64,000 nucleotides of DNA from positions 434,001 to 498,000 of the forward strand of contig NZ_JAASQL010000001.1 in NCBI RefSeq assembly GCF_011762155.1, written 5' to 3'. How positions within the stretch are numbered: position 1 is the stretch's first letter; each line of letters starts with the position of its first letter. This document shows, piece after piece, positions 1-26,845 of the stretch. The notes under the pieces are model-generated. The model was not told where the DNA came from and did not search any database. It worked only from the letters and a program-made list of their open reading frames with translations. The position numbers were made by a program, and so were the translations under genes. The stretch is from Wenyingzhuangia heitensis (GTDB lineage Bacteria > Bacteroidota > Bacteroidia > Flavobacteriales > Flavobacteriaceae).

Positions 1-1
1 T

Positions 2-424: not shown

Positions 425-426
425 GG

Positions 427-2520
427 ATGAAGAACAAAACAAAATATGTATTACAGTTATTGTTTGTATTACACGTGTTTTTAGGATTTTTATTAGTTTT
501 TGAAAATGCTGTACAAGTGCCTTACTGGGTACAGCCTTTAGGAAGAATGCACCCTATTATATTGCATTTTCCGGTAGCTTTTATTGGTTTGTTGGTGTTG
601 TTTACCTTCGCTAAAAAAAGCACTGAAAAGGAAACGTATCAGAAAATACATTATCAATTATTACTACTTACTGCTTTTACTACCGTAATCGCAACCATTA
701 TGGGGTTTTTACTTTCTTTAGAAGGGTATGAGTCAGACTTAATGCAATTGCACAAATGGTTAGGAGTTGCACTTAGTTTTTACATGTATTTGTTAGTTTC
801 AATTTATTCTAAAAAAGTATACACACCTTTGTTATACATGGGTTTGGTATTGGTGGTTTTTGTTGGACATTATGGTGCTGGACTAACACACGGAAGTACT
901 TTTATAACAGAGCCTTTACAGGTTGAAGAGGAGGTAAACGAAAATAGTTCTGTGTACGCAGCCCACATTCAGCCTATTTTAAACAATAAATGTAAAAGTT
1001 GTCACAATGCAGAAAAACCAAAAGGAGGTTTAGATGTAACGAGTATTGAGGCTATTAAAAAAGGAGGAAAGCACGGAGATTTGTGGTTAGCTCATCAGCC
1101 AGAAAAGAGTGTGTTTTTAAAAAGAGTTTTGTTGCCGTTATCTCATAAAAAACACATGGCTCCAGATGGGAAACCTCAGCTAACAAAAGAAGAAATAGGA
1201 TTGATTTCTTTGTGGATTCATCAAGGGATTAATGATACAATTCGTTTAGCTGACTTAAAAGAAACAGACACTTTAAAACAATTGATTAAAACAAAGTGGA
1301 CAACAAAAGAAACGACTCCTAGTTATGATTTTTCTTTTGCAGATGATCAAGTCATCAATCATTTAAGTACTTCTCCTTATATAAGTATTCATACAAAGTC
1401 TGTAAATTCTCCTGCTTTAGATATAACCGTTTATGGAGGTGCAGCGTATAACACTAAGTTTTTAGAGGATTTAATTCCTGTAAAAGAGCAAATGGTTTCT
1501 TTAAACACATCTAATTTGGCAGTTACAGATAAAGATGTAAGTGTAATAAAAGAATTTAAAAACTTAGAAGTTTTAATATTAAACAATACAAATATTACGA
1601 ATAAGGCGATTGTTGATTTAAAAAGCTTAAAAAATTTAACCAAATTATCTGTTTGTGGAACTCAGCTAGATGGCAAAGCTATAGAGGATTTAAAAGACTT
1701 AAAAAGTTTAAATACATTGTGTATTTGGGGAACTAAAATCACTAAAAAAGACACTCAAAAATTATTGACATATTTACCTAATTTAAACATTGAAAGAGGA
1801 GTGAAAAATTCCGATAAAAAAGGGATTGTAGCTCCTCCTAAAATTATTGGGAAAGAAAACGTAAAACAAAACGGAGACGTAATTTATTTAAAACATTTAG
1901 ATCACAACGCGATTGTTAAATACAGTTTAGGTAAGGAAGTAAACAAAGATTCTGAAACTTATAAAGATGGAATTGTTATTGATTTTAAAGATAAAAATGC
2001 AGTTGTTATAAAAGCAAGAGCCTATAAAGAAGGAAAAAATCCGAGTGATGAAATTAAATTTAAAGTCTTTAAAAACAGTATTAAGATAAATTCTTTAACC
2101 ACTAATTTTCCTAATGAAATGGCCGATTACTTTGGAAATGGAGAAACATTACTTATAGATAATTATTTAGCACAAGGTACTGTTACAAATCAAGGGTGGG
2201 TTTCTTACCTTCCTAAAGAAACATTGGTTGCTGTTTTAGATGTAAAAGATAATACTCAAAAAATAAGCGAATTGGTTTTATACTGTGGTACATTTTATAG
2301 ATTTAGGTTTAATTGTTTAAATGCTGTAAAAGTGTGGGGGAGTAATACTAAAGAAAATTGGAAATTGTTAGATAAGATCACCTATCCTGTTAAGAAAAAA
2401 TTTGACAATCAGTTTCAGATAAGATTAAAGTTAAAGAATACAAATTATTCTTATTATAAAGTAGAGGTTGCTATTGGAAAATCTAAAAAATTATTTATTT
2501 CTCAGGCTTTTTTGTATTAA
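427..2520 (+). CDS. Multidomain membrane protein: DUF2231-like, planctomycete-type cytochrome c, LRR-like and galactose-binding-like domains
   Basis: 697 residues. The N-terminal ~165 residues hold four to five membrane helices and a MHPIILHFPVAF motif as in DUF2231 proteins. At residues 189-193 there is a single CxxCH haem-binding motif (C189, C192, H193) in a PSCyt1-like context (HIQPILNNKCKSCH). Residues ~350-455 look like leucine-rich repeats (spaced NLEVLILNNTNIT, NLTKLSVCGTQLD). Residues ~475-550 resemble a chitobiase C-terminal beta-sandwich, and the last ~145 residues resemble an F5/8 discoidin-like fold. Likely anchored in the inner membrane with the haem domain outside. The start follows the DUF1501 stop by 2 bp, indicating translational coupling. 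A redox partner role for DUF1501 is inferred from gene pairing, not shown. Confidence 0.82.
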   Translation: MKNKTKYVLQLLFVLHVFLGFLLVFENAVQVPYWVQPLGRMHPIILHFPVAFIGLLVLFTFAKKSTEKETYQKIHYQLLLLTAFTTVIATIMGFLLSLEGYESDLMQLHKWLGVALSFYMYLLVSIYSKKVYTPLLYMGLVLVVFVGHYGAGLTHGSTFITEPLQVEEEVNENSSVYAAHIQPILNNKCKSCHNAEKPKGGLDVTSIEAIKKGGKHGDLWLAHQPEKSVFLKRVLLPLSHKKHMAPDGKPQLTKEEIGLISLWIHQGINDTIRLADLKETDTLKQLIKTKWTTKETTPSYDFSFADDQVINHLSTSPYISIHTKSVNSPALDITVYGGAAYNTKFLEDLIPVKEQMVSLNTSNLAVTDKDVSVIKEFKNLEVLILNNTNITNKAIVDLKSLKNLTKLSVCGTQLDGKAIEDLKDLKSLNTLCIWGTKITKKDTQKLLTYLPNLNIERGVKNSDKKGIVAPPKIIGKENVKQNGDVIYLKHLDHNAIVKYSLGKEVNKDSETYKDGIVIDFKDKNAVVIKARAYKEGKNPSDEIKFKVFKNSIKINSLTTNFPNEMADYFGNGETLLIDNYLAQGTVTNQGWVSYLPKETLVAVLDVKDNTQKISELVLYCGTFYRFRFNCLNAVKVWGSNTKENWKLLDKITYPVKKKFDNQFQIRLKLKNTNYSYYKVEVAIGKSKKLFISQAFLY

Positions 2521-2578
2521 AATGTGGTTTTTGGTGTTTTATGTTTAATAAAACAGCGTTTGTGTTGTGATAATTGTT

Positions 2579-2617
2579 GTTTTAGCCTTAGTTTTGTAAC
2601 TAAACTAAGGCTAAAAC
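2579..2617 (+). promoter_or_regulatory. Perfect 16-bp inverted repeat overlapping a promoter -7 box and the leader of the next gene
   Basis: Arms at 2579-2594 and 2602-2617 are perfectly complementary with a 7-base spacer. The left arm contains TAGTTTTG (2589-2596), an exact match to the Bacteroidota -7 consensus TAnnTTTG, with a TTG at 2565-2567 as a possible -33 element. The right arm ends 2 bp before the ATG at 2620. The T-rich arm comes first and the A-rich arm second, with no T-run after, so it is not a normal terminator for the upstream operon. It could be an operator for a dimeric regulator or a leader hairpin that affects initiation. Confidence 0.6.
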
Positions 2618-2619
2618 AA

Positions 2620-3780
2620 ATGAAAACTAAATTATTAATACTATGGATACTTTTGTCGTGTTCTGTTTTTTCTCAAGAGAAGAAAATTGGAATTACAGGA
2701 AAAGTAGTTGACGGAACCGATTTTGGAGTTGCTTTTACTTCAGTAACTATTAGCTCTACCTATATTGGTACAGTTTGTAATGACGAGGGAGAATTTGGAT
2801 TAATAGTATCGGAAAAACATATAAAAGATACGTTAGAAATTTCTACCATTGGATTTAAAACATTAAAAGTCCCTATTAAAGATTACTTAGCTCAGCAAGA
2901 AAAAAAGATTGTACTTAAAGAGGATGTGGTGAGTTTAGATGAGGTTCAAATTTTGTCACCAGAGAAGTATGTGGATCTAGCTAGAAAAGCCATCAAAAAA
3001 ACAACACTAAGAAAAACACATCAGTTAAATATTTTATATCGTAGATTTTCTACAGAAAACCATACTTCTAGGTTTTTGGTAGAACATTATATTAAGGCTT
3101 TAGATAGAGGAATGGGTTCTTATCAGTTAGACAAAAAAGTGATTAGCGAGATTAGAAAGTCTGGAGATTACCGTTTTCTTAAAAAGAAACAAAGTTACCA
3201 CGCCATAGATGTAATGATTAATAGACATCCTATTAGAACAGGTGAGTATAGAAATGGTTACGAATGGAAAAAGACAGGAGGAACTACCTACGATGGTGAG
3301 GACATTATAATTTTAGAAGGAAAGCATAAAAAAAATAAATGGAAAAAAATCACATTATATGTAGGGTTAGACAATTATGGAATTTATAAAATAGAAACTT
3401 CAGATTTAGATGCTGTTTATTTGTATAAAAAACATAAAAATGGAAAATTATTTTTAAGCTACCATAACAGAGAGTGGAAAAGTGATATGAGAATTACCGA
3501 CGTACAGAAAAAGTTACTAAAGATTAACAAAAATAAAATTGAGGTTTCTTATAGGCACGAGGCTATGGTACTAAATATAGAAACCGATAGAAAGAAAATG
3601 GATGTAGAGGGTACCGCAATTGGTAACAAAGATATGGGGGATTATGAATTGCCCTACAACCCTGCTTTTTGGAAAGAATTAAACATGCCACCAGAATCTA
3701 CTTTTTATAAAAAATCTGTAAAAGAGCTAGAATCTATATACAAAGTAAGCTTAGAGGATCAATATAAAAATGCAAATTAA
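2620..3780 (+). CDS. Secreted protein with N-terminal carboxypeptidase-regulatory-like domain
   Basis: 386 residues from the ATG at 2620. The frame is open upstream to 2524, but only this start gives a signal peptide (MKTKLLILWILLSCSVFSQ), and the upstream stretch contains the promoter and a palindrome. Residues ~25-105 match the CarboxypepD_reg-like fold common at the N-terminus of Bacteroidota envelope proteins (ITGKVVDGTDFGVAFTSVTI, NDEGEFGL, ISTIGFKTL). The remaining ~280 residues are charged, lysine-rich and predicted beta-rich; I do not recognise a catalytic domain. No TonB plug or barrel is present. It is transcribed alone and followed by a good terminator. Export to periplasm or outer membrane is likely; the function is unknown. 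Confidence 0.78.
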   Translation: MKTKLLILWILLSCSVFSQEKKIGITGKVVDGTDFGVAFTSVTISSTYIGTVCNDEGEFGLIVSEKHIKDTLEISTIGFKTLKVPIKDYLAQQEKKIVLKEDVVSLDEVQILSPEKYVDLARKAIKKTTLRKTHQLNILYRRFSTENHTSRFLVEHYIKALDRGMGSYQLDKKVISEIRKSGDYRFLKKKQSYHAIDVMINRHPIRTGEYRNGYEWKKTGGTTYDGEDIIILEGKHKKNKWKKITLYVGLDNYGIYKIETSDLDAVYLYKKHKNGKLFLSYHNREWKSDMRITDVQKKLLKINKNKIEVSYRHEAMVLNIETDRKKMDVEGTAIGNKDMGDYELPYNPAFWKELNMPPESTFYKKSVKELESIYKVSLEDQYKNAN

Positions 3781-3787
3781 TACAAGT

Positions 3788-3816
3788 AAAAGCTGTCTGT
3801 TAAAGGCAGCTTTTTT
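3788..3816 (+). terminator. Rho-independent terminator
   Basis: Stem AAAAGCTGTC / GGCAGCTTTT (one G-T pair) with loop TGTTAAA and a run of six T, 8 bp after the stop of the preceding gene. Confidence 0.85.
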
Positions 3817-3871
3817 AATTTAGGACTCTTTTATAAAACAAAATAAAATAGAGTTTACTCAGTAAATAGAC

Positions 3872-5353
3872 ATGTATAAAACATTTTTTATAATCATTTT
3901 TATCAGCTTATTTAGTCTGATTTCTTTTTCACAAGAAAGCAAACAAGATAGTTTGTTGAAAAAAATTGAGATAGATTTAAAATATTCTAAGCAATTAATA
4001 ACCATAGCCAATTATCCAGAGGCTTATGATAAAATTTGGGATGCTTTAATTGCCTCAGATTCTTTAAAAAATCCTGTAATAAAGTACAAGGCTTATCAAA
4101 ATCTGTCTTTGTTGTATTCTATTTTTTATAAAAATAAAAAAGCTATTTCGGCTATAGATTCTATGTTTTTGTACGCTTATAAAAGTAATGTCTTAAAAAA
4201 TATTAATATAAAATCTGACTTATATTACACCGCAGCATTAACGTATAGAATGAACGAAAACTATTCGGAAGCTAAGCGAAATTTAGACATAAGTGAACAT
4301 TTACTCGATTCTATAAACTCAACTTTTAACAGAAAAATTTATGTGTTAACAGAAAAAGCTCACATGTATACTTTAACCAATAAGTATGAGGAGTCTGAAA
4401 AAATATTAACTAAAATTTTAAAAGAAATTTCTGAGGGGCACAATTATGCCTCTATTATTTATTCTATGTTGGGAGATTTGTATGTTAAAAAAAATGAGAG
4501 CTTAAAGGCGTTAACGTTTTATAATAAAAGTCTAAAAATTATTTCAAAACAACACAAACGCATTGGTCTTCAGGTGAGTTTGTTAGAAAAAGCAGCTAAA
4601 ATTAATCATCAGCTAGAGAATTATAAATTGGCTTACCAGCAAGTAAATGAGTCTAAGGTTTTGGGGGATAGTTTATTTGGAAGTCAAAGTATCCAAAACA
4701 AACAACTTTTTGAAATTAAAGATTCTTATAGAAATACCCTGGTAAAAAATAACAAAATTAAAAAAGAGCAAGAATTAAAATTGATAAAAGCAGAAAAAGA
4801 GAAATTGAATTTACAGTTAATTTTTTCTGTTGTTTTGGTTGTAATTACAATTTTGGTATCCTTTTTTGGAATCAGATTGACTCGAAAAAAAATGGTTGTA
4901 GAAAAAAAATTACTTACCGAAAGAGCCAACGCAGAACTTGAAATAAAGAAAAAAGAGTTGGCAGTTACAGCTTTACAGTTGATAGAAAAAGACAAACTGT
5001 TAGAAGAAATTAAAAAAGGATTAGAAGAAATTAAAAGAGACAAAGATGACACTTTTGTAGAACAGATAAAAAGTACGATTAACGTAAATTCTGCCAAAAC
5101 ATGGGAGGAGTTTGAGACTAGATTTATACAGGTAAATAACTCTTTTTACGAGTCTTTAGGACAAAAACATACCAATCTTAGTAGAAATGAATTAAAACTA
5201 TGTGCTTTGGTAAAATTGAATTTCTCTACCAAAGAAATGTCACAGTTATTAGGAGTGTCTGCAGATAGTGTAAACAAAGCACGTTATAGATTACGAAAAA
5301 AATTAGAGCTAAAAAGAGATGATAATTTGGTTACCTATATCAATAGTATTTAA
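3872..5353 (+). CDS. Signal peptide - TPR - transmembrane - LuxR-like HTH regulator
   Basis: 493 residues. A signal peptide (first ~21 residues) is followed by tetratricopeptide-like helical repeats to ~residue 300, one membrane helix at ~314-336 (LIFSVVLVVITILVSFFGI), a charged coiled coil, and a C-terminal helix-turn-helix (residues ~435-490: LSRNELKLCALVKLNFST, EMSQLLGVSADSVNKARYRL). This is the common Bacteroidota membrane regulator layout in which a periplasmic TPR sensor is joined to a cytoplasmic DNA-binding domain; its ligand is not known. Monocistronic, between terminators. The neighbouring convergent GH3 gene shares the downstream terminator only. Confidence 0.87.
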   Translation: MYKTFFIIIFISLFSLISFSQESKQDSLLKKIEIDLKYSKQLITIANYPEAYDKIWDALIASDSLKNPVIKYKAYQNLSLLYSIFYKNKKAISAIDSMFLYAYKSNVLKNINIKSDLYYTAALTYRMNENYSEAKRNLDISEHLLDSINSTFNRKIYVLTEKAHMYTLTNKYEESEKILTKILKEISEGHNYASIIYSMLGDLYVKKNESLKALTFYNKSLKIISKQHKRIGLQVSLLEKAAKINHQLENYKLAYQQVNESKVLGDSLFGSQSIQNKQLFEIKDSYRNTLVKNNKIKKEQELKLIKAEKEKLNLQLIFSVVLVVITILVSFFGIRLTRKKMVVEKKLLTERANAELEIKKKELAVTALQLIEKDKLLEEIKKGLEEIKRDKDDTFVEQIKSTINVNSAKTWEEFETRFIQVNNSFYESLGQKHTNLSRNELKLCALVKLNFSTKEMSQLLGVSADSVNKARYRLRKKLELKRDDNLVTYINSI

Positions 5354-5418
5354 GCATCTCGACTCGATGCCTCGATTTAAAATTAACATTTCGGGTGTTC
5401 GAGCGGAGTTGAGAACCT
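5354..5418. repeat. Fragment of a flavobacterial intergenic repeat (TCGA-rich)
   Basis: Directly after the TPR-HTH stop lies a locally GC-richer stretch with GCATC...GATGC and repeated CTCGA/TCGAG words, including TTCGAGCGGAGTTGAGA. It resembles the degenerate interspersed repeats seen between genes of Flavobacteriaceae, and shares TCGA-centred words with the element at 9181-9341. The rest of the gap to 5591 holds only the terminator at 5511-5543; no gene is seen. Confidence 0.5.
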
Positions 5419-5510
5419 AAATATTTCTTATTACAAAAAGTTTTAATATCTAAAAGAGCTGCATCTTTTCCAAAATATAGGGCTTACTCCATAAGATAAA
5501 TCACATAAAA

Positions 5511-5543
5511 AAACCTCAGACAATTCTATATTGTCTGAGGTTT
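5511..5543. terminator. Bidirectional terminator between convergent genes
   Basis: Perfect 14-bp stem AAACCTCAGACAAT (5511-5524) / ATTGTCTGAGGTTT (5530-5543) with a 5-base loop, A-rich on the left flank and T-rich on the right; serves the TPR-HTH gene and the convergent GH3 gene. Confidence 0.87.
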
Positions 5544-5591
5544 GTCTTTTAGTTATAAATACACGAATATATGTATAAATAAATCTCTGGA

Positions 5592-8171
5592 TTATTTAGA
5601 GGTATCTATAATTTTAGAAATCACAAATGGCTTCACCTTTCCAGGAGGAATTATCTTAATAGATTCATGCTCTACAGTACCACTTCTTGTTTTAATTCTT
5701 AAACGCACTGGCTGACCATATTCTGGAGGAATAGGAATTTTAATAGCAAGGTTACGTTGTTTGTTTAAAATAGTATAGGTTCCAATAGAATTTCCAGACA
5801 TAAAGGTTTCTATCACTGCTTCTTTAGTTGCAAATTTAAAGTTTAGTTCAGCATTCCAAGTATTTACATAAAAACCAGGATCAACAAATGTAATCTCATA
5901 TTCTATCCATTTAGAAGTGTCTTCTTCTTTAATGTTAGTTGTGTTTTTATTAGCTTGATTTTTATATAAGTAGTCCCAGCTTCTTCCGTGTTTGTTCACA
6001 TCAAAATTATAGAACGCACTTTTTTGTCCTACTTTAATTTCTGGAATAGCTCCTGCTTTAACCTGAATGGTTTTTGTAGTGCTAATATTGTCACTAGAGT
6101 TTCCAACCAAAATTTCAAAAGTTCCTTTTTCTACCTTTAGTTTTCCTTTTTTAGAATTGTAGTAAGCAAATGCTTCGTAAGGTATTTTAATTTCTACTTT
6201 GTTAGATTTTCCTGGAGCTACAGACACACGTTTAAAACCTTTTAAAGCTTTTATAGGTGTTTTTTTAGAGCTTTTTAAGTTTCTAATGTATACTTGAACT
6301 ACTTCATCTCCATTTACAGCTCCTGTATTTGTTACATTTGCTGTTACAGTAATAAACTCATCAGCTTTTAATTTTTTCTTATCTATAGCAATAGCATCAA
6401 TTTTAAATTGAGTGTAACTTAATCCATATCCAAAAGGGTATAAAGGCTCTCCTTTAAAATACATATAAGTTCTGTTACCTCCAGCAATTTTATAATTGTG
6501 AAAATCAGGTAAATCGTTGTCAGATTGGTACCAGGTAGCATTTAATTTTCCACCAGGGTTTACATCACCAAATAATACTTTAGCCAACGCAGTTCCTTGC
6601 TCTTGTCCGTTTGGCCAAGCACATACAATTCCGGGTATGTTTTTTTGTTCCCAAGTAATAGCAGTAGGTCCACTAGGAACTAAAACTAAAATCACATTTT
6701 TATTTACTGCTTGTACCGCTTTAATTAATTTGTGTTGATTTCCTGGTAGTTTTATAGAGGTTCTATCTGTGTTTTCGGTAGAGGTGGTCTCATCATTACC
6801 AACTACTAAAATTACTTGTTCCGATTTTTTAGCAAGCTCTACAGCTTCGGCAATTTTTTTAGCATCGTCGTCCTTTGCAGTTACCTCACAACCTTGAGCA
6901 AAACTTACAGTAGCATTGGTATAAGCTTTTATTCCGTCTAACGGACTAATTTTACTTTTAGGATGTCCAGAATATATTCCCATCCAACATCTGTTGGCAA
7001 AAGGACCAATCATAGCAATGCTTTGGATGTCCTTTTTTAAAGGAAGTACCTTTTCGTTTTTTAACAAAACAATAGACTCTTCTGCGGCTTTTAAAGCCAA
7101 TGCTTTGTGGGTGTCACACTCTAAAACACTTTCAGGGATTTTAGAATATGGGTTTAGTTTAGCATCGTCAAAATCACCTGTCATAAAACGCAATCTTAAC
7201 AATCTACTTACAGCAATGTCTAGGTCTTTTTCGGTAAGTAAACCTTGTTCTAGTGCCTTTGGTAAAGCATTTACCATTGGAGCATTTCTTACGTTGTTTC
7301 TAAAACATTCTTGATCTACTCCTGCTTTAATAGCCATGGCAGCTGCTTCGGGTTGCGTTTTTGCATATTTCATACGTTTTTCTAATCCTTGTACGGCTGC
7401 CCAATCTGCAATTACATACCCTTTAAAACCCCATTCGTTACGCAAAACACCGTTTACCAACCAATCGTGTGCAGAACAAGGAATTCCGTTCAATCCATTC
7501 AAAGCAGTCATAATTCCGGTAGCTTGTTCATCAACAATACAAGCTTTGTAAGCAGGAAAATAGTATTCATATAAATCCTTTTTTCCAATGTTAGAATGTA
7601 TTATTTCTCTTTTAGTTTCAACATTATTAGCCACATAGTGTTTTACTGTAGTTACGGTTTTTACATAGTTAGGGTCGTTACCTTGCATTCCTCTAACATA
7701 CATACGTGCTATTTCAGACATTAAAAAAGGATCTTCACTGTAACATTCTCCATTACGTCCCCATCTAGGATCACGAGCCATGTTAACGGTAGGAGAAAAC
7801 ATCATCACTTCTTTTTTACCCATGTTTTTTAAAGCTCTTGCTTCGTTAGAAATAGCAGTAGCTACATCAAACATTAAATCGGGGTTCCAGGTAGCACCCA
7901 TGGCAATGTTTTGTGGAAACTGAGTAGCGTTCCAACCAATTATACCATGTAAAGCTTCTCCATACCATTCAAAAGATGGAATTCCTAATCTTTTAATTTC
8001 TGGAATTCTAGATCCGCAGTAACTAATTTTTTCTTCCAAAGTCATTTTAGAGATTAAATCTTCAACTCGGTCGTTTACATTTGCTTTTGGGTCTTTCCAT
8101 GTTTGAGCATTGATGGTCAAAACACTTGTAAGAAAGTAAACAAAACAAATAATTGTCTTAAAATATTTCAT
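5592..8171 (-). CDS. Secreted glycoside hydrolase family 3 (beta-glucosidase / beta-xylosidase type)
   Basis: 859 residues with signal peptide (cleavage near INA-Q22). The GH3 N-terminal barrel is clear: ERxLISKMTLEEK-like start, EALHG, SPTVNMARDPRWGRN, VKHYVANN, and KGYVIADW, whose Asp256 is the predicted nucleophile (the family usually has SDW; here ADW). The GH3 C-terminal domain and FGYGLSYTQF (~580) follow, then a fibronectin-III-like domain (~600-690, VNGDEVVQVYI, KALKGFKRV) and an extra C-terminal beta-sandwich (~730-850, DTSKWIEYEITF) resembling a carbohydrate-binding module. It removes terminal beta-linked sugars from oligosaccharides; glucose versus xylose specificity cannot be read by eye. 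Not in an obvious polysaccharide utilisation locus: no SusCD beside it. Confidence 0.93.
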   Translation of the reverse strand: MKYFKTIICFVYFLTSVLTINAQTWKDPKANVNDRVEDLISKMTLEEKISYCGSRIPEIKRLGIPSFEWYGEALHGIIGWNATQFPQNIAMGATWNPDLMFDVATAISNEARALKNMGKKEVMMFSPTVNMARDPRWGRNGECYSEDPFLMSEIARMYVRGMQGNDPNYVKTVTTVKHYVANNVETKREIIHSNIGKKDLYEYYFPAYKACIVDEQATGIMTALNGLNGIPCSAHDWLVNGVLRNEWGFKGYVIADWAAVQGLEKRMKYAKTQPEAAAMAIKAGVDQECFRNNVRNAPMVNALPKALEQGLLTEKDLDIAVSRLLRLRFMTGDFDDAKLNPYSKIPESVLECDTHKALALKAAEESIVLLKNEKVLPLKKDIQSIAMIGPFANRCWMGIYSGHPKSKISPLDGIKAYTNATVSFAQGCEVTAKDDDAKKIAEAVELAKKSEQVILVVGNDETTSTENTDRTSIKLPGNQHKLIKAVQAVNKNVILVLVPSGPTAITWEQKNIPGIVCAWPNGQEQGTALAKVLFGDVNPGGKLNATWYQSDNDLPDFHNYKIAGGNRTYMYFKGEPLYPFGYGLSYTQFKIDAIAIDKKKLKADEFITVTANVTNTGAVNGDEVVQVYIRNLKSSKKTPIKALKGFKRVSVAPGKSNKVEIKIPYEAFAYYNSKKGKLKVEKGTFEILVGNSSDNISTTKTIQVKAGAIPEIKVGQKSAFYNFDVNKHGRSWDYLYKNQANKNTTNIKEEDTSKWIEYEITFVDPGFYVNTWNAELNFKFATKEAVIETFMSGNSIGTYTILNKQRNLAIKIPIPPEYGQPVRLRIKTRSGTVEHESIKIIPPGKVKPFVISKIIDTSK

Positions 8172-8302
8172 AGAATAAATGTGTTAATAATTATTCTTTA
8201 AAAGTAGTTTTAAGTCTATAGAGAATTAAAAAAAGGGTATGGACATAATAAGGACAAGTCCTGTTTTAAAGGATTTGTGGTAGGTTTTAGGATAGAATTA
8301 CA

Positions 8303-9070
8303 TCAAACTCCAAAAACATCTTTGCTATTCTGTGTCGTAATTTCTGCAATTTCTGTTAAAGATTTTTGATAAATAGTAGCTAGTTTTTCGGCCACGTTTA
8401 CCGTGTACATAGATTCGTTTCGTTTTCCTCTAAAAGGAGTAGGAGCTAAATAAGGTGCATCGGTTTCTAGTACAATATGTTGTAAAGGAATCTCCGTTAA
8501 AAATTTGTCTATTTTACCATTCTTAAAAGTAGATACTCCACCAATCCCTAATTTTAAATTGTAACCAATGGCTTTTTTAGCATCTTCTAAAGTTCCCGTA
8601 AAACAATGAAAAATCCCGAATAACTTTTCTGATTTTTCTTCTTCTAAAATTTCAAAAACTTCAGTAAAAGCATTTCTACAATGTATGTTAATTGGCAGGC
8701 CTAGTTCTTTTGCCCATTGCACTTGGGTTTTAAAGGCTTCTTTTTGTTGATGGATGTAAGTAGCATCCCAATACAAATCAATACCAATTTCTCCCACAGC
8801 CACAAACTTTCCTGTTTCTAACCATTCTCTAGCAATGGCAAGTTCTTCTTTATAGTTTTCTTTAATGTGAGTAGGGTGTACACCCATCATTAAATGTACA
8901 TTTTCAGGAAAAGCCTCAGACACTTTAAACATACTTTGGGTGTATTCAGAATCTACAGACGGAATAAACATACGTTCTACACCCGCATCAATCGCTCGCT
9001 GAATCATGTCATTTCTGTCTTCATCAAATTGTTCGCTATTTAAATGGGTGTGGGTGTCTGTAAAAATCAT
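8303..9070 (-). CDS. TatD family metal-dependent hydrolase (DNase)
   Basis: 255 residues from ATG at 9070 (MIFTDTHTHLNSEQFDEDR). The frame runs open to 9292, but the extra residues are translated from an intergenic repeat and have no family counterpart; TatD proteins normally begin at the HxH strand. Motifs: DTHTHLN (metal HxH), VAVGEIGIDLYWD (catalytic Glu), PINIHCRNAF (His), FHCFTG (His), ETDAPYLAPTPFRGKRNES (metal Asp). TatD enzymes are Mg2+-dependent nucleases acting in DNA degradation or repair in the cytoplasm. It reads toward the GH3 gene, with 130 bp between. Confidence 0.93.
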   Translation of the reverse strand: MIFTDTHTHLNSEQFDEDRNDMIQRAIDAGVERMFIPSVDSEYTQSMFKVSEAFPENVHLMMGVHPTHIKENYKEELAIAREWLETGKFVAVGEIGIDLYWDATYIHQQKEAFKTQVQWAKELGLPINIHCRNAFTEVFEILEEEKSEKLFGIFHCFTGTLEDAKKAIGYNLKLGIGGVSTFKNGKIDKFLTEIPLQHIVLETDAPYLAPTPFRGKRNESMYTVNVAEKLATIYQKSLTEIAEITTQNSKDVFGV

Positions 9071-19804: not shown

Positions 19805-20869
19805 ATGCAAAATCAAAAGGTTCCTAACAGAGTTATAGTGGCTCCATTAAATTGGGGGTGGGGACATGCAACACGTTGTATTCCTATTATAAAAGAACTT
19901 ATAAATTTAGGGATTAAGCCTGTAGTGGCATCTGATGGTCAGGCTCTTGTTTTTTTGCAAAAAGAATTTCCAGAGATTGAATTTTTAGAACTACCGTCCT
20001 ATAACATTCGTTATGGAAAACAGTTTAAATGGTCTATGTTTTTAAATATTCCTGCTATTTTAAGAGGGGTTTACAAAGAACATCAAGCGATTAAGGTATA
20101 TATAAAAGCTCATAAAAATTCTTTGTTAGGTATGATATCAGACAATAGATTAGGGGTTTTTTCTAAACATCTTCCTTCGGTTTATATAACTCATCAATTA
20201 AGTGTTAAAGCGGGTGTAGGCTCTTTTTTTGTAAATAAATTCCATCATTATTTTATTAAAAAACATAAGGAATGTTGGGTTCCGGATGAAGAGAATAGTC
20301 TTTTGTCTGGAGCTTTGTCTAGATCTTTAAAAATTAAGATTCATTATATAGGAGTATTGTCGCGGTTTAAAAAACAAGAAATTCCTGTTGCGTATGAGTT
20401 GCTGATATTATTGTCTGGAATTGAATATCAAAGAAATGAATTAGAGTTAAAAATAAATAAGGCTTTATTGACTTATAAAAAACCTGTTTTGGTAGTTAGG
20501 GGAACTTTTGAACCATGTAAATATATGTATCCTAAAAATTGTACCGTGGTTAATTATTTACTGTCTAAAGATTTAGAAACGGCATTAAATAGTAGTCGTA
20601 GGGTTGTGTCTAGATCTGGTTACAGTTCGGTAATGGATTTGGCTACATTAAACAAAGAGGTTTTGTTTGTGCCTACTCCGGGGCAAACTGAGCAAGAGTA
20701 TTTGGCTAGTTATTTAAAAGAAAGTGGATTGGCTAGTTTTTGTACTCAAAAGGAATTTGATGTTGAATTTTTACAATATAAAAAAACTGCTCAGTGGCCT
20801 GTGTTAACATCCAATGAGCAGTCTTTGTCTCTATGTATAAAAACTTTTTTTAACCTTTCTCTAGTGTAA
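19805..20869 (+). CDS. Glycosyltransferase, MurG/GT28-like
   Basis: 354 residues. N-terminal VIVAPLNWGWGHATRCIPII matches the GHxxR-type sugar-acceptor loop of GT-B enzymes such as MurG; the C-terminal half has RGTFEPCKY and VVSRSGYSSVMDLATLNKEVLFVPTPGQTEQEYLA, the nucleotide-sugar-binding site pattern. Substrate unknown. Common in Flavobacteriia as a conserved protein of envelope glycan or lipid glycosylation, by inference. Its last 20 bp overlap the convergent histidine kinase gene. Confidence 0.83.
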   Translation: MQNQKVPNRVIVAPLNWGWGHATRCIPIIKELINLGIKPVVASDGQALVFLQKEFPEIEFLELPSYNIRYGKQFKWSMFLNIPAILRGVYKEHQAIKVYIKAHKNSLLGMISDNRLGVFSKHLPSVYITHQLSVKAGVGSFFVNKFHHYFIKKHKECWVPDEENSLLSGALSRSLKIKIHYIGVLSRFKKQEIPVAYELLILLSGIEYQRNELELKINKALLTYKKPVLVVRGTFEPCKYMYPKNCTVVNYLLSKDLETALNSSRRVVSRSGYSSVMDLATLNKEVLFVPTPGQTEQEYLASYLKESGLASFCTQKEFDVEFLQYKKTAQWPVLTSNEQSLSLCIKTFFNLSLV

Positions 20870-21884
20870 AGTAAAAAGTGGAACCCTGTCCAATGGTGCT
20901 TTCAACATCTATAGTTTGCTCGTGTGCTTCTATAATATGTTTTACAATAGACAACCCTAAACCAGATCCTCCTTGGTCTCTAGACCTACTTTTTTCTACT
21001 CTATAAAAACGTTCAAACAAACGTTCTACATCTTCTTGTTTTACGCCTTCACCATTATCGGTTACGTTAATGGCTATTTTTTCATCATCTACATATTCTA
21101 TAGAAACAATGGTGGTTCCTCCTATTTTTCCGTATTTAATAGAGTTCATAACTAAGTTGATTAGTACTTGTTCTATTTTGGCTTCATCTGCCAATACAAA
21201 TTCAGGAATGTCGTAAAATTTATCAAGCCTTAATTTAATACTTCGCTTTTTAGCTTGCATTTCTAACAAATCAAACACTTTTTGAATAACTTTGATAATG
21301 TTAAACGTGTCTATTTTAAGTTTTAAATCGTTGGTTTCTAGTTTTGTAATCATGTCTAGGTCACCTACAATTTCACTTAATCTTGTGATGGCTAAGTTGG
21401 CTCTTTTTAAATATTTTTCTCTAATTTCTACATCTTCGGCAGCTCCCTCTATTAGTGTAAGTAAATAGCCTTGTACGGTAAATAAAGGAGTCTTAAGTTC
21501 GTGAGCTACGTTTCCTAAAAAGTCTCGTCTATAGTTTTCTCTAAAATTAAGTTTTTTAATTTCTTGTTTCTTTTTATAGGTATACTTTAAAATATCTCTA
21601 GCTAAAAAATCAAACTCATCAGCATTAATATTCGCGATTCTTCTTTTTTTAAGAGAGGTTACTTGTTTGTATATTTTATCTATTCTAAAGTTTATGTAGG
21701 TTTCTACTCCGTTGTTTATTATAATAATAAGGACTACAAAAAGTACAGCCGATAGAATTATAAAAACTTTGGTAGGGAGTATTACGTCTGTAAAGTACAT
21801 AAACATTAATAGTACTACGTTTATACAACCAATAAGTATAAGTACGATGGCTATAGAAAAAAAGAAAAAGTTTTTAATCTTCAT
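20850..21884 (-). CDS. Sensor histidine kinase, PhoR-like
   Basis: 344 residues. Two N-terminal membrane helices (~7-30 and ~38-58) with almost no periplasmic loop, a linker, HisKA domain with phospho-acceptor H128 in GNVAHELKTPLFTV, and HATPase with N-box (VLINLVMNSIKYG), DNGEGV and QGGSGLGLSIVKH. The absence of a periplasmic sensor domain is like PhoR of the phosphate system, which senses through membrane partners. Overlaps the response regulator gene by 11 bp (translation coupled). Convergent with the glycosyltransferase. Confidence 0.92.
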   Translation of the reverse strand: MKIKNFFFFSIAIVLILIGCINVVLLMFMYFTDVILPTKVFIILSAVLFVVLIIIINNGVETYINFRIDKIYKQVTSLKKRRIANINADEFDFLARDILKYTYKKKQEIKKLNFRENYRRDFLGNVAHELKTPLFTVQGYLLTLIEGAAEDVEIREKYLKRANLAITRLSEIVGDLDMITKLETNDLKLKIDTFNIIKVIQKVFDLLEMQAKKRSIKLRLDKFYDIPEFVLADEAKIEQVLINLVMNSIKYGKIGGTTIVSIEYVDDEKIAINVTDNGEGVKQEDVERLFERFYRVEKSRSRDQGGSGLGLSIVKHIIEAHEQTIDVESTIGQGSTFYFTLEKG

Positions 21885-22566
21885 TTAATATAAACTTATA
21901 TCCAACACCTTTAACTGTTTTAAAGTGATCGTCTCCAATTTTTTCTCTTAATTTTCTAATGTGAACATCAATAGTTCTATCTCCTACAACCACATCACTA
22001 CCCCAAACTTTTTTCATAATGTTTTCACGGTTAAAAACTTTACCGGGTTTAGATGTTAACAAAGAAAACAATTCAAACTCTTTACGAGGTAAAATAATCT
22101 TCTCGTTGTCTTTAATCACTAAGTATTCGTCTCTATCTATAACAATACCTCCTAAATCGGTTGTGTTGTTGCTTTCTCCATCTTCTTTTAATCTTCTTAA
22201 TAAAGATTTAATCTTGCTGGTTAAAACTTTAGGTTTAATTGGTTTGGTAATGTAGTCATCTGCCCCTGCATCAAACCCAGCTACCTGGCTATAATCTTCT
22301 CCTCTGGCAGTAAAGAAAGAGATAATTACATTCCCTAATTCTGGAATTTCTCTAATTTTTTCACAAGCTTCAACACCGTCCATTTCTGGCATCATTACAT
22401 CTAATAAAATTAAGTGTGGTTGTATCTTTTTTGCTTGACTTACAGCTTCTAAGCCGTTGCTTGCTGTGTATATATCGTATCCTTCTTTTTTAAGGTTGTA
22501 ACCTACAATTTCTAAAATATCTGGTTCATCGTCTACCAAAAGAATTTTAATCTGATTTTTCTCCAT
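21874..22566 (-). CDS. Response regulator, OmpR/PhoB family
   Basis: 230 residues from ATG at 22566 (MEKNQIKILLVDDEPDIL); 8 further upstream codons are probably untranslated. Receiver domain with phospho-acceptor D56 in LILLDVMMPEMDG, ADDYITKPI lysine, and a C-terminal winged helix (LPRKEFELFSLLTSKPGKVF, VVGDRTIDVHIRKLREKIGD, TVKGVGYKF). The PhoB-type DNA-binding domain binds direct repeats with 11-bp spacing, and exactly such repeats lie in the adjacent intergenic region. PhoB identity is therefore well supported but inferred. Confidence 0.92.
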   Translation of the reverse strand: MEKNQIKILLVDDEPDILEIVGYNLKKEGYDIYTASNGLEAVSQAKKIQPHLILLDVMMPEMDGVEACEKIREIPELGNVIISFFTARGEDYSQVAGFDAGADDYITKPIKPKVLTSKIKSLLRRLKEDGESNNTTDLGGIVIDRDEYLVIKDNEKIILPRKEFELFSLLTSKPGKVFNRENIMKKVWGSDVVVGDRTIDVHIRKLREKIGDDHFKTVKGVGYKFILNED

Positions 22567-22621: not shown

Positions 22622-22688
22622 CTTAACAATGATTTAATACTGTGGCGTAGTTAACATAATATACAAAACCTCTTAACGCTATGTTAAC
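22622..22688 (+). promoter_or_regulatory. Pho-box-like tandem repeats between PhoB-like gene and TonB receptor gene
   Basis: Hexamers related to (C/G)TTAAC start at 22622 (CTTAAC), 22633 (TTTAAT), 22650 (GTTAAC), 22672 (CTTAAC) and 22683 (GTTAAC). Distances are 11, 17, 22 and 11 bp, so two blocks each keep an 11-bp phase. PhoB/PhoP-type regulators bind direct repeats with this spacing, and the word TTAACA matches the known Bacillus PhoP half-site. The block sits between divergent genes and could control both. Confidence 0.65.
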
Positions 22689-22769
22689 ACAAAGGTAATG
22701 GTAGCTTAGGCTCTTTAAGGTATTTATTATAGATTTTTGCACCGCTTTTAAACAAATATAGCATTGATA

Positions 22770-25553
22770 ATGAGAAATTTATTAGTTACATTTTTTACTT
22801 TAATGACCGTGTTTACGTACGCACAGTCTAAAGGGACAATTTCAGGATTAGTACAAGACAAAGATATGGACTTGGAGCCATTACCATTTGTAAGTGTTTA
22901 TGTAGAAGGTAATACAAGTTTAGGTACTACTACAGACTTTGATGGAGTTTACCGTTTGCAATTAAAACCTGGTGTCTATACCGTGGTTTATGATTTTGTT
23001 GGTTACAAATCTGTAAAAAAACAAATAGTTGTTAAAGGAGGAGCTTCTCAAAAAATTACGGTTGTTATGGAATCTGTTGCCGATGCTTTAGATGCAGTGG
23101 TTTTAACGGCTGTTACTAACAAACAGAGTGAGGCAGCGTTAGTAGATGTTCAAAGAGAAGCTGTTGAAATTGTTACTGCAATTGGATCAGATGAAATGTC
23201 AAAAAAAGGTGTAAGCGATGTGGCTGCTGCAGTTACTAAGGCAGCAGGAGTTACTAAGCAAGAAGGAGGTTCTGGTAGTATCTTTGTTAGAGGTTTAGGG
23301 GATCGTTATAACGTTACTACTTTAAACGGATTACCACTACCGTCTAATAATCCATCTAATAAAAATATAAGTTTAGATATCTTTTCTACTGACATTGTTG
23401 AATATGTAGGGATTAGCAAAACATTTGAATCTCAAAATTATGCTGATTTTGGAGGTGCAAATATTGATATCAATTCAAAAAAATTCTCAGGAAGCCCTTA
23501 TGTGAAATTAGGATTAGGAGCTGGAGTAAATTCAAATGTTTTAGGAGAAAGTTCTTTTTATTTACAAGATGGACCAAGTTATTTTGGTTTTGCTACAGGT
23601 GAAGCATCTTCTACTCCTTTTAATCCGAGTAGCTATGGAACAAGTTGGGATAGAAAAAAATCAACAAATAATGTGTTAAACAATAGTTTGTCTCTTTCAG
23701 GTGGTAGAAAATTTGACTTAGGAAATGCTGGTAAAATAAGTGCTTTTTTAACAGCTTCATTTGATAATGATAGTAAGTTTATTGAAGGTATTAGTAGAAG
23801 CAGTGTAACTGCTCAAGGGGATAAAAATTCAGATTTTTATAAAAAAGCTTATAAATATAGTACCAACTCTACTTTAATGGGTACGGCTGATTATAAAATA
23901 AACTCAACAAACTCTATTTTGTTTACAACATTGTTTTTGAATTCTTCATCGCAGCAATATGCAGAGTACCAGGGTGAAAATCAAAATTTTGATGGTGGGG
24001 CTCCTGGGGCAAATGATTTAAGTGGTTTTATTAAGAGAAGTACTTTTGATAAAACTCAATTAATAGTAAATCAGTTAGTAGGTAAACACAATGTTAATGA
24101 TCAATTGGATGTTAATTGGGCTTTAGGATATAGTCTTTTAAATAATGAAATTCCAGATCGTATGCAGAATACTTTTATTCCTGCAAGAGATGGTTCTGAT
24201 GATTATACTTTTTTCTCGAATGGTGGAATTAACAATCACCGTTACTACCAGAACTTAGATGAAAATGAATTTTCTAGTAATATAGCTGTTTCATATCGTT
24301 TTAGTAAAGATGAAGACGATGCGTATAAAGGAAAAATAACTTTAGGGTATGCAAATAGATTTAAGTCAGTAGAGTTTAATTCAAACCAATATTCTTTTCA
24401 ACCATTGAATGATAGATATGTGTTTTCAGAAGATCTAATTCATAATGTAGATCAAATTTTTGAAGCAACTCCTTTTTCTACATCAGCAGGTGATAAAGTT
24501 AGTCTGTTGGAACAAGAGTATAGCGGTGATCTATTTGTAAACTCTATATTTACAAATTTACAATATAAATTATCAAAAAAATTAACAGCTATCTTAGGAG
24601 TAAGATTTGAGTCTGTAAATCAAAACGTGTCTTTTTCAAACTCCACAATACCAGATGGAGATGAATCTGAATTTAATGCTTTTAAGGTTTTACCTAGTTT
24701 GATTTCTAAATATAAAATTAACGATAAACAAAACGTGAAATTAGCATTTAGTCAAACTTATACTTTACCTCAGTTTAAAGAAAAAGTAGCTTTGCCTTAT
24801 GAAGAGGTAACTCAAGTTTATCAAGGGAATCCTGATTTATATGAGTCTACTAATTATAACTTAGACTTAGGATGGGAGCTGTTCCCTGGTAATGCAGAGT
24901 TGTTATCTGTGACCACTTTTGGTAAAATAATTCAAAATCCTATTAATGAGGTTTTTGTGAATTCTGCATCGGGAGATATTAGTTATGTAAATAGTGGAGA
25001 GCAAGCGTTAGCTGTTGGTGTTGAGCTTGAGTTAAAGAAAAATATTTTTGTTATTGAGAGTAAAGATATGTTGCAAACAAAGTTATCTTATGGTTTAAAT
25101 GCTTCATATATATATACGGATCAAGATTTGGATGCAGACAAAGTAAGTAGTGAAAATGATTTTGGAGCAAGTTTTACGTTTGAGAATTCTAAGTTAGCGG
25201 GTGCTTCTGATATTTTAGCAAATGCTGATGTTAGTTTTTTTCAAGAGTTTTCTGACAATAAAGACATAACAGCAACGGTTTCTTATTCTTATTTTTCAGA
25301 TAAATTGGCCGTAATTGGAACTAGAAATAGAGGTAATTATATTGATAAAGCTGTAAATAAATTAGATTTTATTGCAAAAGCAAGTTTATCAAAACAATTA
25401 AAACTAGGACTTTCTTTTAAGAATATTTTAAATCCTAAATATGAAAGAATACAGGCACAAAGTGAGGTAGAGGGTAGAAATAACCCAGATGTAGTTATTA
25501 GCTCATATAAGCTAGGGTCTAGTTTAAGCGTCTCTTTAGGGTATACATTCTAA
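22770..25553 (+). CDS. TonB-dependent outer-membrane receptor
   Basis: 927 residues from ATG at 22770 (MRNLLVTFFTLMTVFTYAQ signal peptide); a TTG two codons upstream is less likely. Carboxypeptidase-regulatory domain (~22-110: GTISGLVQDKD, FDGVYRLQL), TonB plug (SGSIFVRGLGDRYNVTTLNGLPLPS), and a 22-strand-type barrel ending VSLGYTF. Single-component receptor rather than SusC: no SusD gene follows. Upstream are 11-bp-phased TTAAC repeats, and downstream is a lipoprotein gene with the same repeats, suggesting a phosphate-controlled uptake pair. The ligand, perhaps a phosphorylated compound, is inferred from regulation only. Confidence 0.93.
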   Translation: MRNLLVTFFTLMTVFTYAQSKGTISGLVQDKDMDLEPLPFVSVYVEGNTSLGTTTDFDGVYRLQLKPGVYTVVYDFVGYKSVKKQIVVKGGASQKITVVMESVADALDAVVLTAVTNKQSEAALVDVQREAVEIVTAIGSDEMSKKGVSDVAAAVTKAAGVTKQEGGSGSIFVRGLGDRYNVTTLNGLPLPSNNPSNKNISLDIFSTDIVEYVGISKTFESQNYADFGGANIDINSKKFSGSPYVKLGLGAGVNSNVLGESSFYLQDGPSYFGFATGEASSTPFNPSSYGTSWDRKKSTNNVLNNSLSLSGGRKFDLGNAGKISAFLTASFDNDSKFIEGISRSSVTAQGDKNSDFYKKAYKYSTNSTLMGTADYKINSTNSILFTTLFLNSSSQQYAEYQGENQNFDGGAPGANDLSGFIKRSTFDKTQLIVNQLVGKHNVNDQLDVNWALGYSLLNNEIPDRMQNTFIPARDGSDDYTFFSNGGINNHRYYQNLDENEFSSNIAVSYRFSKDEDDAYKGKITLGYANRFKSVEFNSNQYSFQPLNDRYVFSEDLIHNVDQIFEATPFSTSAGDKVSLLEQEYSGDLFVNSIFTNLQYKLSKKLTAILGVRFESVNQNVSFSNSTIPDGDESEFNAFKVLPSLISKYKINDKQNVKLAFSQTYTLPQFKEKVALPYEEVTQVYQGNPDLYESTNYNLDLGWELFPGNAELLSVTTFGKIIQNPINEVFVNSASGDISYVNSGEQALAVGVELELKKNIFVIESKDMLQTKLSYGLNASYIYTDQDLDADKVSSENDFGASFTFENSKLAGASDILANADVSFFQEFSDNKDITATVSYSYFSDKLAVIGTRNRGNYIDKAVNKLDFIAKASLSKQLKLGLSFKNILNPKYERIQAQSEVEGRNNPDVVISSYKLGSSLSVSLGYTF

Positions 25554-25572
25554 TAGGAAAGTAAATCTTAAA

Positions 25573-25611
25573 CTAAAAAGCCATACTTATAAAATAAGTA
25601 TGGCTTTTTAG
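25573..25611. terminator. Terminator after the TonB receptor gene
   Basis: Perfect 18-bp stem (25573-25590 / 25594-25611) with a 3-base loop; core AAAAAGCCATACTTAT followed on the other arm by a T-run. Confidence 0.87.
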
Positions 25612-25669
25612 TTAACAAAAAGTTCACAAATCAAAAGTATACTTAACAAGAACTTAATAAGTTCTTAAC
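25611..25669 (+). promoter_or_regulatory. Pho-box-like tandem repeats before the surface lipoprotein gene
   Basis: Hexamers start at 25611 (GTTAAC), 25622 (GTTCAC), then 25642 (CTTAAC), 25653 (CTTAAT) and 25664 (CTTAAC). Spacing is 11 bp inside each block. The same words and the same spacing occur upstream of the TonB receptor gene. A near-match -7 element TTTCTTTG lies about 25 bp downstream. Confidence 0.65.
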
Positions 25670-25744
25670 TTATTAAAATAAACAGTTGTTCTTTCTTTGT
25701 ATCAACAAAATTTGAAACAAAAACATAACAAAATTTTTATTAAA

Positions 25745-26845
25745 ATGAAAAAATCAATTTTATCAATTTTAGCAATTGCTACTTTAGTTTTTACAAGTTG
25801 TTCAAGTGACAATGGAGATGATAACAAAAAGAGTTCTTTTGTGTTAACAGCTAGTGATTTAAAAGGGGATATTACAGATGGAACTGTAACTTTAAAAGCT
25901 TCTGATGAATATACGTTAACAGGAGCCTTAGTTGTTAGATCTGGTGCTTCTTTAAAAATTCCTGCAGGAACTACTATTAAGTCTTCTGCTACTGCAAGTG
26001 CACAATCTTTATATATTGCTGTTGAAAGAGGAGCTAAAATCTTTATCGAAGGAGAAGCAAATAATCCAGTGGTAATGACTTCAGGTAAATCGTCTCCATC
26101 TCAAAGTGACTGGGGAGGATTAGTAATTTGTGGTGATGGAATAACAAATGTAGGAACTGATGCTACTTCTGAAGTTGCAAGTTTAAAGTATGGAGGAGCT
26201 AATAATAACGATTCTTCAGGATCTATAGAGTTCTTAAAGATTTCTTACACAGGAGCTAATAACGGTTCTGATAAAGAATTTAATGGAGTTTCTTTCTTTG
26301 CTGTTGGTTCTGGAACTGTAGTAGAAAACATATACACTTTTGAAAGTGGAGATGATGGAATCGAATTCTTTGGAGGTGCTGTAGCTGCAACTAACTTAAG
26401 AATTGAAAACTCTTATGATGATTCTTTAGATTTTGCTGATGGATTTGTAGGTTCTGTAACTAATGTATACATCAAAGGTGTTACTAAAGCTGGAATTGAA
26501 GGTTCTAACAATGGAGAAGATACTGCTGCTTTACCATTAACAGATGCTAAAATTAGTAATGTATCAATTATTAAAGGAGAAGGTTTTGGAGCATCTGAAC
26601 AAGCAATTAACTTAAAAGAAGGTACTGGTAAACAAGCTTACACTAACTTATTTGCTGAAGGTACTGCTAGTTTTGCTAAAATTTCTAGTGATAGTAATAC
26701 TACTGCAAGAATTGCAGCTGGAGATGTAAAAGTTAACGGAAGTGCGTTTGTTTCAGCAAATAATACTATTGCTGATTATGTTTCAACTGAAACTGGAGCT
26801 GGAAACGGAGCTACTGTACCAACTTGGGCTACTAAAATTCAATAA
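25745..26845 (+). CDS. Surface-exposed beta-helix-like lipoprotein
   Basis: 366 residues from ATG at 25745 (MKKSILSILAIATLVFTSC); an upstream in-frame start is inside AT-rich leader. Lipobox Cys19 is followed by SSDNGDD, which matches the Bacteroidota lipoprotein export signal for transfer to the cell surface. The rest is low-complexity, G/N/S/D-rich and resembles a right-handed parallel beta-helix (repeats such as GDDGIEFFGGAVAATNLRIE, SLDFADGFVGSVTNVYIKG). No catalytic motif is evident. It probably acts with the TonB receptor upstream as the surface-binding partner, with shared Pho-box-like control; that is inference. Codon use is strongly biased to A/T-ending codons as in a highly expressed gene. 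Confidence 0.8.
   Translation: MKKSILSILAIATLVFTSCSSDNGDDNKKSSFVLTASDLKGDITDGTVTLKASDEYTLTGALVVRSGASLKIPAGTTIKSSATASAQSLYIAVERGAKIFIEGEANNPVVMTSGKSSPSQSDWGGLVICGDGITNVGTDATSEVASLKYGGANNNDSSGSIEFLKISYTGANNGSDKEFNGVSFFAVGSGTVVENIYTFESGDDGIEFFGGAVAATNLRIENSYDDSLDFADGFVGSVTNVYIKGVTKAGIEGSNNGEDTAALPLTDAKISNVSIIKGEGFGASEQAINLKEGTGKQAYTNLFAEGTASFAKISSDSNTTARIAAGDVKVNGSAFVSANNTIADYVSTETGAGNGATVPTWATKIQ

Follow-up and report, generated by a model that had tools for sequence, protein, structure and literature searches.

Two described systems come closest to the locus examined here. The PUSIV locus of Flavobacterium johnsoniae is reported to comprise the GT28 gene Fjoh_0541, PhoR (0543), PhoB (0544), a receptor (0545), and the lipoprotein FII (0546), and the fold changes given for these five genes upon phosphate depletion, which we read as log2, are 5.42, 0.76 (not significant), 3.06, 8.02, and 9.91, respectively (PMC8115612). 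Among the phosphate-induced genes published for F. johnsoniae, 95 transcripts exceed log2 4 (PMC8115612). The ElpS/CC0171 pair of Caulobacter crescentus was reported in 2010 (PMC2996285) and PUSIV in 2020; FI-FIII of F. johnsoniae are described as 31-36% identical to ElpS over about half their length (PMC8115612). On the side of the regulator, a motif whose most conserved bases are TTTAACA has been published for PhoP of Riemerella anatipestifer, with gel shifts at several promoters (PMC9603813). Here we analyzed a 64,000-nt stretch (the window) of the 3.67 Mb genome of Wenyingzhuangia heitensis (the host genome), in which a TonB-dependent receptor gene and a lipoprotein gene, lying next to a PhoB/PhoR-like gene pair, are each preceded by an array of TTAAC-type repeats in 11-bp phase.

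Very probably, this is a PhoRB-linked outer-membrane phosphorus-acquisition locus of Flavobacteriaceae, of the PUSIV type, whose promoters would be driven by PhoB and whose products would serve uptake. The gene order, GT28-like (+), PhoR-like (-), PhoB-like (-), TonB receptor (+), and lipoprotein (+), brings the same five functions, including a lipoprotein without a Pfam match, into one neighborhood and is matched by the published order of PUSIV; the window differs in having no OprP gene beside phoR. The GT28-like gene is the positional counterpart of Fjoh_0541 (pf04101), and the lipoprotein that of FII, whose family is reported to be related to ElpS. A reading of the window made from the sequence alone had presented it as a system not assigned before, which does not hold, as the layout matches PUSIV (PMC8115612) and recalls ElpS/CC0171 (PMC2996285). 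With the latter it would share a phosphate-starvation surface lipoprotein adjoining a TonB receptor; in Caulobacter, however, ElpS is reported to need a type II secretion system for release, and CC0171 to be expressed constitutively (PMC2996285). The gene set is thus already known from F. johnsoniae; new here are the phased layout of the promoters and its apparent extension to porin and Pit genes. Neither “motif” nor “Pho box” appears in the main text on PUSIV (PMC8115612). The Riemerella motif, TTTAACA, resembles the repeats, but the passages concerned give no spacing rule, and the roles described for that regulator extend past phosphate (PMC9603813). In open-license full texts, mostly judged from listings, we found no description of the phased-array spacing rule.

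In E. coli and Bacillus, Pho boxes are direct repeats at 11-bp spacing that are bound by PhoB/PhoP dimers. In the window, a fixed half-site is likewise repeated directly at 11-bp steps, as in a PhoB-type Pho box, but here the half-site is TAAC/TAAT, several copies stand in one phase, and the series is locked to a TTTG(C) element, which we take to resemble the Bacteroidota -7 element. Array A (22622..22710, + strand), supported by alignment with relatives, has half-sites at 22622, 22633, 22650, 22672, 22683, 22694, and 22705, and array B (25611..25669, + strand) has them at 25611, 25622, 25642, 25653, and 25664. Seven of the ten (C/G)TTAAC hexamers claimed by the sequence-only reading are exact (22622, 22650, 22672, 22683, 25611, 25642, and 25664), and the other three are degenerate, namely, TTTAAT at 22633, GTTCAC at 25622, and CTTAAT at 25653. 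The 11-bp register that it saw within blocks is real, as the positions fall into the groups 22622/22633, 22650/22672/22683, 25611/25622, and 25642/25653/25664, and the second group continues in phase with GGTAAT at 22694 and CTTAGG at 22705. In the receptor promoter, TTTGC at 22736..22740 (+) is probably the core of the -7 element; TTTGCA is invariant there in 9 aligned promoters, and TAAC/TAAT lies 40, 51, 62, and 84 bp 5′ of TTTGC. For the lipoprotein promoter, the probable core is TTTG at 25696..25699 (+), located by a promoter-model match, with TAAY 30, 41, and 52 bp upstream, a spacer one base longer. A strict -7 pattern, TAnnTTTG, was rejected with almost no matches 3′ of the repeats; the conserved core is TTTG(C/T).

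Such phasing might arise by chance in AT-rich intergenic DNA, and the window taken alone leaves some room for this explanation. The hexamer by itself is not enriched (67 seen vs 100.6 expected), and clusters of at least four TTAAY within 90 bp, three of them in one 11-bp phase, occur exactly twice, at the two promoters, with shuffled windows holding 0.68 such clusters on average and up to 4. This local statistic is modest, and it is conservation between species that puts the repeats far beyond chance. The comparison drew on 100 fetched loci, which are best-matching relatives and no random sample, with some species present twice (Flavobacterium limi as L088 and L110). Their 243 upstream regions were reduced to 194 by dropping identical ones and those shorter than 60 bases, which left 92 receptor and 102 lipoprotein regions, the window’s own included in each set. 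TTAAY pairs at 11 bp were seen 51 times in the receptor promoters (1.8 expected) and 15 times in the lipoprotein regions (1.2 expected); counts were also elevated at other spacings, for example 8, 19, and 33 in the receptor set and 19, 22, and 44 in the lipoprotein set. An exact 11-bp TTAAY pair is present in 45 of the 92 receptor regions, compared with 5 on the reverse strand.

The distance to the TTTG core is fixed as well. Ahead of TTTG(C/T) in 84 receptor promoters, TAAC stands at 29 bp (59 cases), 73 bp (56), 62 bp (43), and 40 bp (34), with merely 5 and 3 cases at 51 and 84 bp and 29 cases at 92 bp, outside the 11-bp series; off-phase distances hold 0.61 on average, a mean computed without distances 81, 92, and 103, and 5 at most. 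Ahead of TTTG(C/T) in 63 lipoprotein promoters, the preferred distances are 51 bp (25), 29 bp (23), and 84 bp (11), with an off-phase mean of 0.81 and a maximum of 6. At least three in-phase half-sites occur in 65 of 91 receptor promoters, compared with 7.2 in shuffles (maximum 12), and in 20 of 88 lipoprotein upstream regions, compared with 3.5 (maximum 5). The 117 nonredundant promoters of relatives are conserved position by position, and this, together with the shuffle and strand controls, already contradicts a chance origin, which we regard as scarcely credible. What this analysis establishes is how the promoters are built and spaced, that they are conserved, and that the genes are linked.

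Models derived from relatives point to the same two promoters. A 37-position matrix, built from 11-bp TTAAY pairs of relatives, places its two best window matches at 22673 (20.9) and 25643 (19.4); ranks 3 and 4 (21874 and 30539) fall outside the promoters of the receptor and lipoprotein genes. A promoter model was trained on the 117 nonredundant promoters (126 before the removal of near-identical ones), which had been chosen from the 194 regions because they have a TTTG no more than 80 nt from the start and at least two phased TAA, with the window’s own two excluded. In its rigid form, of 112 positions, the model ranks the receptor promoter first in the window (17.4; next 5.7). In the split form, to which a one-base spacer tolerance was added, the lipoprotein promoter comes first (29.5 at 25696) and the receptor promoter second (19.6 at 22736), the next of 127,870 positions scoring 10.1. 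Over 112 host-genome loci (359 kb, overlaps included), just the two window promoters reach at least 19 with the split model, followed by 18.4, 18.1, and 17.3.

The same architecture is found at other phosphate-transport genes, namely, before porin O/P in relatives and, in F. limi, before a DUF47-Pit operon. In the host, a porin O/P gene (PF07396) lies directly 3′ of a Pit-type gene (PF01384), elsewhere in the genome, and TAAC pairs at the Pit gene stand 29 and 40 bp ahead of a TTTC. This Pit permease (L255:2563-4812, contig C1) is 749 aa long, about twice the PF01384 model (350 positions), and has two PF01384 stretches; the remaining part might contain a regulator domain. A porin O/P match was obtained in 128 of the 199 genomes sampled, and among the 29 best-matching relatives, with the host excluded, 26 upstream regions reach a score of 15 or more when the forward strand is read, compared with 1 for the reverse strand. 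The model matches lie 188-210 bp upstream in 4 of these 26 and 15-34 bp upstream in the rest. A Pit gene is in the flank at 26 of the 29 porin loci, and a lipoprotein relative at 8. Among 27 pattern matches in F. limi (control 23), two score at least 20, the receptor promoter (39.1) and the DUF47-Pit operon (27.9); the same pattern gives 13 matches in the host genome (control 22), where the lipoprotein promoter alone reaches that score.

Not all phosphate genes looked at carry the box. PafA is encoded in the host genome (715.1 bits vs a cut-off of 650), and its promoter is without a box (best model score 1.7); as PafA is reported to be phosphate-insensitive, this is expected and equally lends no support. 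For another PF01663 gene, the best model score in its stretch is 6.4, away from the gene start, and PhoX, which was looked for in the host genome, is absent. The PF01663 search of the host genome returned 41 matches, mostly weak and of sulfatase-like size, many of them on contigs C1 and C3; perhaps, and this is a guess, the host degrades sulfated polysaccharides. At L208, a gene whose first residues look, on visual inspection, like those of phosphoglycerate mutase has a TTAAY pair 57 bp ahead of it (matrix score 16.1), which may be due to chance.

Several results weigh against a PhoB-driven locus of the PUSIV type. The assignment of the two-component pair is below threshold, as the PhoB and PhoR models both fall short of their curated cut-offs: the regulator scores 203.9 bits with the PhoB model TIGR02154 (cut-off 296.2) and 201.7 bits with the Bacteroides PhoB model NF053854 (cut-off 270), and the best NCBIfam models of the kinase are PnpS (236.6 bits, cut-off 400) and PhoR (230.1 bits, cut-off 334.2). 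We use the label “PhoB-like” because of these scores. The lipoprotein promoter is absent from the 15 best window matches of the rigid model, and the one-base spacer tolerance was introduced after the shift in the window had been seen. Just 11 of the 102 lipoprotein regions have an exact 11-bp TTAAY pair, with 6 on the reverse strand, and two in-phase sites, found in 75 of 91 receptor promoters, barely exceed the 59.9 of the shuffles; as this two-site control is weak, we relied on the three-site count alone. None of the 12 listed model matches is near the GT28-like gene, though its counterpart is induced. The host Pit promoter scores 6.7 and is tied with a match on the other strand, and the host porin promoter has an 11-bp pair, misses the distance rule, and is outside the five best model matches of L255. 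Finally, the bare 11-bp motif is a poor predictor. Four patterns gave 40, 25, 25, and 13 matches in the host genome vs 46, 34, 15, and 22 for reversed-pattern controls, so that three of the four were rarer than their control and one was commoner. One of them, TTAACNNTNNNTTAAY (25 matches vs 34, no enrichment), has matches in promoter position before seven genes, namely, the receptor (two matches), porin O/P, and five without a known link to phosphate. The refuting conditions named in the sequence-only reading came out mixed, with the raw motif common elsewhere, PhoU not found, and pafA lacking a box, and with 11-bp TAAC pairs at the host Pit and porin O/P genes. Because the raw motif is mostly unenriched genome-wide, its presence was discarded as evidence, and conservation and geometry were used instead.

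OmpR-family regulators generally use direct repeats, and the arrays could be the sites of another member of that family, responding for instance to metal or envelope stress, with phoRB retained merely as ancestral synteny. The host genome does encode two further Trans_reg_C regulators, one of which still reaches 193.5 with the PhoB model; their best models are nevertheless CzcR/CopR-like and RppA-like, also below cut-off. A PhoB-like gene lies within the fetched stretch at just 38 of the 100 loci, and 17 of the 54 receptor promoters without one still have the exact pair, but the pair is commoner where a PhoB-like gene is nearby (28 of 38). The identical architecture before porin O/P, mostly with Pit in the flank, and before the F. 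limi DUF47-Pit operon also argues against a different regulator, as do the F. johnsoniae counterparts, which, according to PMC8115612, respond to phosphate and are tightly repressed when nitrogen or iron is limiting. We therefore consider another regulator improbable. Control by phosphate starvation, as initially proposed from the sequence, and probably by the adjacent PhoB-like regulator, is supported by the conserved motif geometry in relatives, by the other phosphate-transport genes, and by the induction reported in F. johnsoniae (PMC8115612), and we infer that PhoB binds the arrays.

Domain and family-model searches confirmed the PhoB/PhoR-like pair, the TonB receptor, and the lipoprotein named by that first reading. 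The glycosyltransferase 28-like gene (19805..20869, +) matches Pfam PF04101 with 31.2 bits (cut-off 22) and has a relative at 20 of the 100 fetched loci. It is followed by the PhoR-like sensor histidine kinase (20850..21884, -), with HisKA and HATPase_c domains, and by the PhoB-like OmpR-family response regulator (21874..22566, -), whose best NCBIfam model is PhoB. The TonB-dependent receptor (22770..25553, +; 927 aa) has CarbopepD_reg_2, plug, and barrel domains and scores 143.3 bits with TIGR01782, missing the cut-off of 310; a relative lies directly 5′ of the lipoprotein gene in 99 of the 100 loci. Between the receptor and lipoprotein genes, a 20-bp hairpin (25571..25613, +) overlaps the beginning of array B and has a fold energy of -25.6 kcal/mol (z -10.1). 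It is possible that it is a terminator splitting two transcription units, which would account for each gene having its own array; the list returned by a simple terminator scan does not include it. The same gene order is seen in F. limi and F. hibernum, whose lipoproteins are 41% and 40% identical to that of the window. Compared with Wenyingzhuangia marina (L135), PhoB is 90% and PhoR 79% identical and the promoter is closely conserved, whereas the receptor (42%) and the lipoprotein (45%) are far more divergent and closer to those of other genomes (L072, 56/65%). This pattern of identities suggests that the receptor/lipoprotein pair may have been replaced behind a retained promoter.

The lipoprotein (25745..26845, +; 366 aa) has a lipobox cysteine, Cys19, which is invariant in 39 aligned sequences, including that of the window. 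The SSDNGDD that follows it, as stated in the sequence-only reading, is present and resembles the export signals SDDFE of F. johnsoniae and SDDDD of B. fragilis (PMC5080379); the protein is probably surface-exposed. No Pfam or NCBIfam match was obtained for it, and relaxing the Pfam threshold to E 10 gave none either. It lacks SusD-type domains (pf07980/pf14322), and the pair is accordingly not of the SusCD/PusCD kind, in line with the original view of it and with the predicted fold. A structure model (pLDDT 90.5, almost all strand) predicts a right-handed beta-helix, with beta-helix proteins, pectate lyases, and phage tailspikes as the closest solved folds; because none matches at E<=0.001, function is unreadable from the fold. 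A sequence search of solved structures returned just three matches, no better than chance (E 0.17 or worse). In several relatives, including L046, L047, L049, and L055, the lipoprotein unit is repeated inside single frames of ~740-1070 aa. The pair also occurs in one Pseudoalteromonas and one Bacteroides record. The former, a megaplasmid (L298), encodes at 1-8544, one after the other, a TonB protein, a TPR protein, a protein of 1366 aa that carries the lipoprotein match (found at three places in the record), and a TonB receptor; this is the pair in a proteobacterial form.

The receptor might not import phosphorus at all, and could instead aid the export, release, or sensing of the lipoprotein, which would itself aid an extracellular phosphatase, as suggested for ElpS/CC0171. 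ElpS secretion is reported to accompany higher extracellular phosphatase activity, and a sensing role of CC0171 was considered (PMC2996285); a predicted beta-helix closest to polysaccharide lyases and tailspikes would also fit. However, deletion of cc0171 is stated to have left ElpS production going (data not shown in PMC2996285), and the receptor has the plug and barrel domains of an importer. Porin O/P and/or Pit genes moreover lie downstream on the same strand at 15 of 80 named lipoprotein loci, with 7 more beside the pair in another arrangement. We regard a role in export or sensing as unlikely and favor uptake of phosphorus through the receptor.

For a PUSIV-type acquisition locus, the following mechanism can be proposed. 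At low phosphate, PhoR would phosphorylate the PhoB-like regulator, dimers of which would align head to tail on the 11-bp-spaced TTAAC/TAAY half-sites, on one helix face and at a fixed distance from the -7 TTTG. The bound dimers would probably take the place of the upstream core element and bring RNA polymerase to each of two distinct promoters, the first serving the TonB-dependent receptor and the second, past the terminator-like hairpin, the beta-helix lipoprotein, which would be exported to the cell surface. There, the lipoprotein may bind an organophosphate or a polymer containing phosphorus, or assist in its processing, and the receptor would carry the substrate inward. In the host, porin O/P and the Pit permease, whose genes have similar repeats, may carry out the inner steps.

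A wider proposal is more tentative, and on present evidence we find it somewhat doubtful: Flavobacteriaceae may have a Pho regulon without PhoU, and probably without Pst, that acts via a phased TAAY array (29, 40, 51, 62, and 73 bp from TTTG(C)) and builds a continuous path that starts at the cell surface and ends in the cytoplasm (lipoprotein, receptor, porin O/P, and Pit), with Pit and a PitR-like DUF47 protein replacing Pst-PhoU sensing. No PF01895 match for PhoU was obtained in the host genome at E<=0.001, with 13 of 14 control genomes positive; PstSABC is stated to be absent in plant-associated Bacteroidetes (PMC8115612). The lack of PhoU in the host poses the question by what means PhoR would sense phosphate. 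PitR has recently been reported as a regulator of PhoPR in Staphylococcus aureus (PMC13170248).

From a biological perspective, the expression data that we found for Flavobacteriaceae come from Flavobacterium strains, and the combination of half-site, 11-bp phase, and fixed TTTG distance would provide a sequence-only predictor of phosphate-starvation genes across the family. It would also tie to phosphorus supply a widespread, uncharacterized lipoprotein, of which a relative is present in 180 of the 199 sampled family genomes, the host counted.

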